From contig JAHWKB010000008.1 in assembly GCA_019348115.1 (NCBI GenBank), forward strand, positions 1 through 37,412: a DNA stretch of 37,412 nt. The letters run 5' to 3'. The stretch is from Actinomycetota bacterium. GTDB lineage: Bacteria; Actinomycetota; Nitriliruptoria; Nitriliruptorales; Nitriliruptoraceae. Of this stretch, positions 6,514 through 9,324 are shown piece after piece; the stretch's first letter is position 1; the number at the start of each line of letters is the position of its first letter. Below the pieces are notes generated by a model. It saw only the letters and a list, made by a program, of their open reading frames with translations, did no database searches and was not told the origin of the DNA. Both the position numbers and the translations under genes were made by a program.

Positions 6514-7908
6514 TCAGGAGATCCCCCGGTCCGCTTCGAGCAGTCGCAGCCAGACCTCGCTCATGGTGGGGAACGACGGCACGGCGTGCCACAGGTCGTC
6601 GAGGGTGAGGCCCGAGACGATGGCGATCGTGGCCGCGTGGAGCATCTCGCCCACGCCGGGCCCGGTGAACGTGGCGCCCACCACGGTCCGCTTCCCGCGG
6701 TCCACGACCAGCTGCGCGGTCCCGGAGACGCCCTCGCCGAGGAGCGCGCCGCCGGCGACGTCGCCGATCCCGTGCGACAGGGTCGTCACGTCGAGGTCCT
6801 GCTCGCGTGCCATGGCCTCGGTCCGTCCGACCGCCGCGACCTGCGGATCGGTGAACACGACCCGCACGACGGCCTCGTGGTCGGCGCGGGCCTCGACGTC
6901 CTTGCCGGCGAGATGGTCGCCGACGAGCCGGGCCTGGTACTTGCCGTGGTGCGTCAGGAGCGCCCGGCCGTTGACGTCGCCCACGGCGTAGAGCCAGCCG
7001 TCGATGCCGACCGCCCGCAGCTGGTCGTCGGTCTCGATGTACCCGTCCGTCTCGAGTCCGACGGTGTCCAGCCCGAGGTCGCCCGTGTTGGGCCGGCGGC
7101 CGGTCGCCACCAGCAGCTCGTCGGCCTCGAGCTCGGTCCCGTCCTCGAGGCGCAGGGTCACGGGCCCGTCGGTCCCGTCCCGTCGGGCGCCGACGGCCTT
7201 CGCGTCGACGTGGACGGTGATGCCCTCGGCGTCGAACGCCTCGCGGAGCTCCTCGCCGACGAACGGCTCCTCCGTCGCGAGGAGCCGGCCGCCCATCTCG
7301 ACGATGGTGACCTCGTCCGCACCGAGCCGGCGGAACGCCTGCGCCATCTCCACGCCGACCACCCCGCCGCCGAGGACGAGCAGGCGGTCGGGGATCTCCT
7401 TCGCGGTGGTGACGTCGCGGCTGTCCCAGGTGCGGATGTCCCGCAGACCGTCGATCGGCGGGATGGCCGCGGAGGAACCCGTGGCGACGACCACGCCCCT
7501 GCGGGCCCGCAACGTGCGCGTGCCGTCGTCGGTCTCGACCTCGACGGTCCGCTCGCCGGCGATGCGACCGTGCCCGCGGATGAAGGTCGTACCGGTGCTC
7601 TCGACCCACTCGACCTGGTCCCGGTCGTCCCAGTGGGAGGAGAACGCATCCCGCGTGCGCAGGGTCTCCTCGACGTCGACCTCGCCGGTCACGGCCGGCG
7701 CGGCGCCGGGGACACGACGGGCGGCGGCGAGCGCCTCCCCGGGGCGGAGCAGCGCCTTCGACGGCATGCAGGCCCAGTAGGAGCACTCGCCGCCCACGAG
7801 CTCGCGCTCGATCAGCGCCACCTCCAGGTCGTTGTCCCGGGCGTACCAGGCGGCGTTCTCCCCCGCGGGCCCGCCACCGATCACGATCACGTCGAACTCG
7901 TCCCTCAT
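6514..7908 (-). CDS. FAD-dependent pyridine-nucleotide disulfide oxidoreductase (Lpd/MerA-like), 464 aa
   Basis: A class I flavoprotein disulfide reductase, cytosolic. It has the FAD-binding GGGPAGENAA (11-20), the redox disulfide motif ECSYWACMPSK with Cys42 and Cys47, an NAD(P)-binding LLVLGGGVVGVEMAQAF at about 175-191, the FAD-contacting TDDQLRAVGIDGWLYAVGD block, and a C-terminal dimerisation domain. In lipoamide dehydrogenase the C-terminal motif is HPTLSE, whose His is catalytic. Here the aligned residues are FPTMSE (446-451), so the His is a Phe and only the Glu remains. True lipoamide dehydrogenase activity is therefore doubtful; a MerA-, transhydrogenase- or quinone-reductase-like role is possible. 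The ATG at 7908 is chosen for the strong GGAGGAG five bases upstream; an in-frame extension of 22 codons lacks family similarity. It is divergent from the hydrolase gene. Confidence 0.9.
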   Translation of the reverse strand: MRDEFDVIVIGGGPAGENAAWYARDNDLEVALIERELVGGECSYWACMPSKALLRPGEALAAARRVPGAAPAVTGEVDVEETLRTRDAFSSHWDDRDQVEWVESTGTTFIRGHGRIAGERTVEVETDDGTRTLRARRGVVVATGSSAAIPPIDGLRDIRTWDSRDVTTAKEIPDRLLVLGGGVVGVEMAQAFRRLGADEVTIVEMGGRLLATEEPFVGEELREAFDAEGITVHVDAKAVGARRDGTDGPVTLRLEDGTELEADELLVATGRRPNTGDLGLDTVGLETDGYIETDDQLRAVGIDGWLYAVGDVNGRALLTHHGKYQARLVGDHLAGKDVEARADHEAVVRVVFTDPQVAAVGRTEAMAREQDLDVTTLSHGIGDVAGGALLGEGVSGTAQLVVDRGKRTVVGATFTGPGVGEMLHAATIAIVSGLTLDDLWHAVPSFPTMSEVWLRLLEADRGIS

Positions 7909-8055
7909 GCCCGCTCCTCCGGATGTCCCACCATCCGTAACCCATGCCGGGACCGGATGCATCCCGTCCACCACGGACGGAAGGCTGCCGGGGGGGAGAG
8001 ACGGGAGCCGCCGCCGCGGTCACCATGCACCGTCCCCGAACCCCCTGGAGCAAGC

Positions 8056-8898
8056 ATGCCCACCGCGACGACCAGCCGACACGCCGACGTCGACGGCGTC
8101 CCCATCCGCTGGGAGGAGGGCGGCGAGGGCCTCCCGGTGGTCCTGGTGCACGGCATCCCCACGAGTCCGGACCTCTGGCGCCACGTGATCCCGCTCCTCG
8201 ACGGCGTCCGTGTGCTGGCGTTCGAGATGGTCGGCTACGGCCGGAGCATGCGCGCCGGGCGGGACCGCGACATCTCCGTGGCGGCGCAGGCCCGCTACCT
8301 CAACGCCTGGCTGGACCACCTCGACATCGACCGCGCGATCCTGGTCGGTCACGACCTCGGTGGCGGCGTGGTACAGATCGCGGCGGTTGCCCGCCCCGAG
8401 CGGTGCGCCGGCCTCGTCCTCACGAACGCGATCTCGTACGACTCCTGGCCGATCCCGAGCGTGAAGGCCTTCGGTGCGGCCCCCGCGCTCGTCGCCCGGA
8501 CCCCGGACGCGATGCTGAAGGCCGTCCTCGGGAGCCTCCTCGCCCGTGGCCACGACGACCTCGAGATCGGACGCGAGTCCCTCGAGCTGCACTACGCGCA
8601 CTACGCCGATGCCGACGGCGGGGCGGCGATGGCACGCCAGGTCGCGGCACTCGATGTCGGGGACACGCTCGCGGTCGCCGACCAGCTCCGCCACCTGGAC
8701 GTCCCGACGCGGATCGTGTGGGGCCTCGCCGACCAGTTCCAGAAGGCGCGCTACGGCGAGCGGCTCGCCCGTGACCTCGGCACCCGACCCATGGGCATCG
8801 AGGGCGGCAAGCACTTCACCCCGGAGGACCACCCGCGGGAGGTCGCGGGCGCCATCCTGGAGCTCGTCGCCGAGGTCGCCGCGACGACGAGGTCCTGA
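8056..8898 (+). CDS. Alpha/beta hydrolase with Asp nucleophile (epoxide hydrolase or haloalkane dehalogenase-like), 280 aa
   Basis: A soluble alpha/beta-fold hydrolase. The oxyanion-hole motif is VHGIPTS (31-37). The nucleophile elbow is VGHDLGGG (97-104), so the nucleophile is Asp100 rather than Ser. The likely acid is Asp226 in VWGLADQ and the catalytic His is His253 in GKHFTPEDHP. A GHD elbow with an HGxP motif is typical of epoxide hydrolases and haloalkane or haloacetate dehalogenases, which act through an alkyl-enzyme ester. The cap domain (about 130-200) is too divergent for me to choose between them. The start follows GGAG by five bases. The next gene begins one base after its stop codon, so the two are co-transcribed. 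Confidence 0.88.
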   Translation: MPTATTSRHADVDGVPIRWEEGGEGLPVVLVHGIPTSPDLWRHVIPLLDGVRVLAFEMVGYGRSMRAGRDRDISVAAQARYLNAWLDHLDIDRAILVGHDLGGGVVQIAAVARPERCAGLVLTNAISYDSWPIPSVKAFGAAPALVARTPDAMLKAVLGSLLARGHDDLEIGRESLELHYAHYADADGGAAMARQVAALDVGDTLAVADQLRHLDVPTRIVWGLADQFQKARYGERLARDLGTRPMGIEGGKHFTPEDHPREVAGAILELVAEVAATTRS

Positions 8899-8899
8899 C

Positions 8900-9169
8900 G
8901 TGGACGTCCCGCTCCTGTACGTCCACGGCTGCCCCAGCTGGGAGCTGGCCGACCGACGGCTCCGCGCGCTCGAGGACGAGCTCGGCTTCCCGGTGGAGCG
9001 ACGTCGGGGGGAGACGCTCGAGGACGCGGAGCGCGTCGGCTTCCGCCGCTCGCCCATGATCCCCGTCGACGGCCGCGATCCCGTCGCCGAGGGGGACGAG
9101 CCCGTAGGACGCTCGTGCCGGCTCCACCGGACCCCGGACGGACTGGCCGGCGCCCCGACGGTGGAGTAG
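8900..9169 (+). CDS. Small thioredoxin-fold protein (DF-family-like), 89 aa, apparently shortened by an in-frame TAG
   Basis: The sequence LLYVHGCPSWELADRRL, then a run to RRSPMIPVDGRDPVAE and a C-terminal CRLHRTPDGLAGAPTVE, is the pattern of small thioredoxin-like proteins sometimes annotated as DF family (seleno)protein or alkylmercury-lyase-like. Cys11 stands where related selenoproteins would carry selenocysteine. Relatives, as I recall them, continue after SVE with QLRAAL. Here the codon after GAPTVE is TAG at 9167-9169, and the frame then reads LRSVLGGDRAAS and a TGA at 9206-9208. A CAG-to-TAG change would explain this. The protein may still work, losing only a final helix. The GTG start lies one base after the hydrolase stop. 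Its substrate is unknown. Confidence 0.7.
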   Translation: MDVPLLYVHGCPSWELADRRLRALEDELGFPVERRRGETLEDAERVGFRRSPMIPVDGRDPVAEGDEPVGRSCRLHRTPDGLAGAPTVE

Positions 9170-9206
9170 CTGCGCAGCGTCCTCGGCGGAGACCGGGCGG
9201 CAAGCT

Positions 9207-9236
9207 GAGGATCCAGGGCGGCGGCCCTGGATCCTC
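9207..9236. terminator. Perfect 13-bp hairpin, bidirectional terminator candidate
   Basis: GAGGATCCAGGGC (9207-9219) pairs perfectly with GCCCTGGATCCTC (9224-9236) across a 4-nt loop. It lies between the convergent thioredoxin-like gene and the 3' end of the tRNA gene, and could end transcription from both sides. No T-run is present on either strand. Confidence 0.6.
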
Positions 9237-9237
9237 G

Positions 9238-9324
9238 TGGTGCGCGAGGGGAGACTTGAACTCCCACGCCTGTGAAGGCACACGGCCCTCAACCGTGCGC
9301 GTCTGCCAATTCCGCCACTCGCGC
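9238..9324 (-). tRNA. tRNA-Leu (anticodon GAG)
   Basis: Read on the minus strand, the acceptor arms GCGCGAG and CTCGCGC pair perfectly and the 3' CCA is encoded. The D arm is GCGG...GACGC-like with GGCAGA in the loop. The anticodon stem is CACGG/CCGTG around loop TTGAGGG, giving anticodon GAG. A long variable arm (TGCCTTCACAGGCG region) marks a class II tRNA, and the T arm is GGGAG-TTCAAGT-CTCCC. The total is 87 nt. It reads CUC and CUU leucine codons; CUC is frequent in this GC-rich genome. I see no integrase gene or repeated tRNA end nearby, so it is not obviously in use as an integration site. Confidence 0.97.

Follow-up and report, generated by a model that had tools for sequence, protein, structure and literature searches.

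Several described proteins come close to the DF protein studied here. The family to which it is related, NF049942 (DF family (seleno)protein), is entered as 'Hypothetical protein DF' in a table of one review (PMC13188914). A DF homolog matches the thioredoxin-like protein MtH895 (1ilo) by sequence (E 1.3e-4, residues 1-59), and thioredoxin was the top Foldseek match of the modelled DF protein (E 5e-3, TM 0.55), the sequence identity between DF and proteins of the thioredoxin fold (MtH895, Escherichia coli thioredoxin) being low. None of the Foldseek matches reached E<=0.001, and neither Foldseek nor the sequence matches to structures yielded a DF protein whose structure is known; among the papers listed by the literature search, none dealt with this particular DF gene. 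Elsewhere in the phylum, DF homologs with one in-frame TGA occur, and in one Sec-type relative (L028) this UGA codon stands where the focal DF protein has a cysteine (Cys 11).

NF049942 was the sole NCBIfam match of the focal protein at E<=1 (profile positions 1-89 of 96), in agreement with the DF-family-like nature proposed in an initial annotation of this DNA, while a Pfam search gave no match at E<=1. The score was 42.0 bits for the truncated form and 44.1 bits when read through, which is below the curated cut-off of 70. Scored alone against the same profile, four Cys-type relatives obtained 63.6-74.3 bits, with one of the four reaching the cut-off, and L028 obtained 109.4 bits when read with Sec. 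In alignment A2, the DF protein here and its 47 relatives (48 sequences) all match NF049942 at E<=1e-5. Judged from sequence, the DF protein here is homologous to the NF049942 family, yet scores well under the relatives that were scored. Its homology to family relatives extends over the whole length, with up to 62-63% identity and E-values down to 1.7e-34. The residue pairs C11 P12, S51 P52, and C73 R74 are invariant in alignment A1, the DF protein here included; the corresponding Cys/Sec-Pro (near the N-terminus), SP, and CR motifs were taken from the present alignments, not from the definition of the family. The C-terminal helix expected after ..PTxEQL is not intact, being cut by a TAG at codon 90. 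Among genome contigs, the twelve best DF relatives all belong to MAGs, labelled Nitriliruptoraceae, Nitriliruptoria, Euzebyales, Actinomycetales or Actinomycetota; a scan of genome contigs with the focal protein alone as query found no relative.

Reading frame and homologs at the stop position

The window (the whole stretch of 37,412 nucleotides that was analysed) comes from an uncultured actinobacterium, whose draft genome, G000, has 422 contigs and 2,951,256 bases (92.24% complete, 4.38% contaminated). The features around the DF gene are collected in Table 1. According to the initial annotation, positions 8900-9208 encode a protein that ends GAPTVE at a TAG, after which the frame reads LRSVLGGDRAAS and then TGA. 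These coordinates proved exact, and reading the frame from the GTG at 8900 reproduced both segments, with the TGA at 9206-9208; apart from the TAG, the frame is unbroken on either side of it. The inverted repeat that follows was read by eye from the sequence and is possibly an old terminator hairpin, with no T run after it. The GC3 of the gene is 0.92. Its codon usage scores 0.247 per codon, the 5th percentile of called genes being 0.312, and the gene lay under the gene-calling threshold and was left out of the 219 genes called (see below). Codon usage was dropped as a sign of decay because DF relatives score alike. A PADLOC scan gave no match.

Table 1. Features of the DF locus (positions in the window)
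Feature	Position	Strand	Remarks
Alpha/beta hydrolase gene (PF00561, E 2.9e-27)	8056..8898	+	Directly 5' of DF
Inferred deletion junction	8879..8900	+	Matching flanks 22 bp apart; 1,761 bp apart in G001
DF-family thioredoxin-fold gene, truncated	8900..9169	+	GTG start, 89 codons, TAG stop
In-frame TAG	9167..9169	+	83/98 homologs Gln there, 0/98 stop
12 more in-frame codons (LRSVLGGDRAAS) and TGA	9170..9208	+	Corresponds to the remainder of the C-terminal helix and the tail in relatives
Perfect 10-bp inverted repeat	9209..9234	+	Right 3' of the second stop (TGA)
tRNA-Leu (GAG)	9238-9324	-	Just beyond the inverted repeat

Relatives were found in 30 of 101, 27 of 66, and 77 of 396 genomes searched (overlapping sets, with G000 itself among them). 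Of 72,556 plasmid records, 72 gave a relative, and so did 406 of the 430 candidate stretches among genome contigs (80 of these were kept). After removal of duplicates, of frames cut by a contig end, and of partial matches, which failed to cover consensus residues 8-80, 98 distinct full-length homologs were aligned from DNA. At the position of the TAG, their codons are CAG (71), CAA (12), ATG (7), GAC (3), GAT (2), GCG (1), GGG (1), and GAG (1); Gln is therefore encoded by 83 of the 98 and another residue by 15, with a gap or stop in none. At least six residues follow this position in all 98. The expectations that relatives continue with Gln and that a single-base CAG-to-TAG change suffices are both borne out, and the circumstance named beforehand as counting against a truncation, homologs that also end here, was rejected by the alignment (0/98). 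The stop lies inside a frame that all 98 relatives keep open, as in a nonsense pseudogene, and in the match tables of the 66- and 396-genome searches an internal TAG occurs only in the focal row.

The six residues after the TAG score 10.9 against the helix profile of the homologs, which is the best value among the 184 stop-free six-residue stretches that follow any TAG in the six frames of the window (the next being 5.8). When stop-free six-residue stretches in all frames are taken, 22 of 70,229 score as high, the focal segment included. As far as this profile comparison goes, the segment fits the homologs' helix better than chance. Selenocysteine was also considered as an explanation and was rejected, the stop being TAG, not TGA, and lying near the C-terminus, while the TGA of L028 is at the Cys 11 position.

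Amber readthrough or recoding, by which the TAG would be translated and a full-length protein made, was among the options of the initial annotation, and it is now considered very unlikely. The genome encodes release factor 1 (498 bits, cut-off 423.25) and none of the 28 tRNAs found has a CUA anticodon, although this set is incomplete, with tRNAs for His, Cys, Tyr, and Asn not found either, so that a suppressor could be absent from the assembly; the codons past the TAG also keep the helix pattern, as readthrough would have it. The use of TAG elsewhere in the genome points the other way. In a sample of 267,138 bases of the 2.95 Mb (20 stretches and the window), genes were called with a simple codon model, and the 219 called genes end in TGA (163), TAG (55), or TAA (1). 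Extensions past the stop were scorable in 210 of them (160 TGA, 49 TAG, and 1 TAA), and a coding-like extension, with a score >4 and over half of it outside other called genes, was seen in 0 of 210, including 0 of the 49 TAG genes; this test detects long extensions only, and the 12-codon DF tail, which scores -0.14, would go unflagged. By these genomic signs TAG is an ordinary stop in G000.

Conserved positions and predicted effect of the stop

In an AlphaFold2 model built from the read-through protein and 47 relatives (mean pLDDT 80.8, pTM 0.73; residues 98-102 below 50), the C-terminal helix comprises residues 88-100. The stop, at residue 90, takes away 11 of this predicted helix's 13 residues, which agrees with the earlier view that the last helix is missing. 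Inferring from the fold, a product without most of this helix is probably unstable or inactive.

The rest of the protein has also changed. Of the 22 columns with a conservation of 90% or more, it deviates at four (F8V, G50R, F62V, and L71R), G50 being present in every other row of the alignment, and at seven of 37 columns when 30 homologs and a threshold of 80% are used; C11, P12, P52, and C73 are retained. For comparison, 83 of the 99 rows deviate at 0 or 1 of the 22 columns, and six other rows, all without the TAG, deviate at 4-7 columns (four rows at 4, L053 at 5, and the distant L028 at 7). In the protein tree, the end branch of the focal protein is 0.62 (median 0.29); the tree leaves its nearest relative unsettled, with L002 of genome G045 the nearest by path. 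Relaxed selection was sought in the branch lengths by codon position, where the ratio of first/second- to third-position change on the focal end branch was an ordinary 0.17 (13 of 28 other rows are higher). Such a ratio, together with the GC3 of the gene, would speak against simple long-term decay, and any loss of the DF gene is probably recent.

These data bear on the idea of a tolerated truncation, according to which 89 residues suffice for a folded, working protein and this lineage can do without the last helix. The four retained residues named above and a codon-position pattern like that of a constrained gene are in its favor. However, none of the 98 homologs ends at this point, the helix is part of the modelled fold and two of its leucines are conserved (in 89 and 71 of the 98 homologs), and four nearly invariant residues have been changed too. 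A tolerated truncation is considered improbable.

The upstream block and the MerR regulator

The TGA of the alpha/beta hydrolase gene stops one base ahead of the DF GTG. In G001, the only genome of the same genus in the searches, the order is hydrolase, MFS transporter, MerR regulator, operator, and DF, and in the window it is hydrolase and then DF. The hydrolase relative of G001 is 78% identical; the MFS and MerR genes (assigned by Pfam) are on the other strand, and DF is on the strand of the hydrolase. The block between the two flanks in G001 (L129, G001:C234), which is missing from the window, contains the MFS transporter gene, the MerR regulator gene, and a MerR-type operator. Only the first 24 residues of the G001 DF gene beside the hydrolase are on contig C234, and its first 71 bases differ from those of the focal gene at 20 positions. 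A second, full-length DF gene is found on another contig of G001; because there are two, the assignment of the orthologue of the focal gene rests on position. The sequence CGACGAGG at 8885-8892 recurs in the leader of the G001 DF gene, possibly as a retained ribosome-binding region, though an 8-base match could be chance. The simplest reading of the comparison is that a block of ~1.7 kb was probably deleted in the focal lineage, as opposed to inserted in G001.

Two further observations concern the neighbors of DF genes. In G052, a hydrolase relative (65%) lies ~1.2 kb beyond MerR-DF in a different orientation; the DF gene near it (L125 / L053, G052:C18) is full-length and fast-evolving (end branch 0.61), and the other DF copy of this genome, L034, has an end branch of 0.03. 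In the window, a pyridine nucleotide-disulphide oxidoreductase gene occupies positions 6514-7974 (minus strand), and an 81% identical relative adjoins the DF gene of G045 (L122), which suggests a link in function or position between the oxidoreductase gene and DF.

Among the 96 homologs with at least 400 bp upstream, a MerR gene detectable with one query lies within 700 bp in 38 and is divergent from DF in 36 of these; for the 35 divergent genes whose alignment starts at the MerR N-terminus, the distance to DF is 53-150 bp. With the same single query, no MerR was detected in 58 of the 96. Pairing of DF with MerR is therefore frequent, not general, and the homologs with no detected MerR include L002 (G045) and L003 (G016); both are full-length and conserved, and near their DF genes the operator pattern had no match. 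The operator pattern, TTGACCTTNNA...T..AAG...TA, was found with at most one mismatch in 24 of 66 genomes of the class (a reversed-pattern control gave 1 match) and upstream of both G001 DF genes; at the same stringency it is absent from G000. The best MerR match within the window has an E-value of 1.6, and the closest G000 relative of the G001 MerR is 41% identical. In place of a divergent MerR gene with its operator, the hydrolase gene stands upstream of the focal DF.

An error of sequencing or assembly would require just one base, as would a minority allele in a mixed population whose cells mostly have the unbroken gene, and the contig number, completeness, and contamination of the draft leave room for either. 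The changed invariant residues and the missing block are, however, separate signs of decay that a one-base error does not explain, and we regard such an error or allele as unlikely. The missing regulator could also be fitted into a quite different scheme: after the loss of MerR, DF would become the second cistron of a hydrolase operon, and a leaky TAG would yield two forms of the redox protein, one short and one long, at a constant ratio. To this scheme we attach hardly any probability.

Probable decay of the DF gene and comparison with related systems

A recent nonsense mutation in the DF gene, which would make it a pseudogene in the making, is considered the best reading and a rather probable one. 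It had been one of several options in the initial annotation and is now favored by the 98 homologs that all continue past the stop and by the changes at four of 22 conserved columns; these changes, like the missing upstream block, had gone unnoticed in that annotation. Many DF relatives are divergent from a MerR-family regulator over the operator described above, and we infer that a deletion of ~1.7 kb probably took the transporter gene, the regulator, the operator, and the promoter, which would leave DF directly behind the alpha/beta hydrolase gene. Before, with, or after this deletion, substitutions at nearly invariant positions and the nonsense change at codon 90 would have arisen; translation would then stop at codon 90 and yield a product whose C-terminal helix has lost 11 of its 13 residues, presumably with loss of function. 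Against decay, it may be said that the loss of MerR need not mean decay, as the intact L002 and L003 also have no detected MerR. Nonsense truncation and the onset of a pseudogene are ordinary events. The gene would best be annotated as a truncated DF-family gene and probable pseudogene, and not as a functional variant of reduced length, and it is possibly a small case of gene decay that accompanies the loss of the gene's regulator. More generally, the frequent DF-MerR pairing (38/96) is a useful hint to the function of the DF family.

With regard to described relatives, three of the 72 plasmid records were inspected; in two, DF and a 'heavy metal-responsive transcriptional regulator' are divergently placed, and in the third DF adjoins an ArsR/SmtB-type regulator. 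The 'thioredoxin family protein' of the Pimelobacter simplex plasmid pA-N39 is 48.5% identical over 94% of the read-through protein, and that of the Arthrobacter agilis plasmid pAAG24-152 is 42.3% identical over 94%. Both plasmid genes are full-length and divergent from a heavy-metal-responsive regulator, whereas the focal gene has no such regulator adjoining. Compared with the NF049942 family as a whole, the focal protein is like its members over most of the profile and unlike them in its score of 42-44 bits and in its truncation at codon 90.
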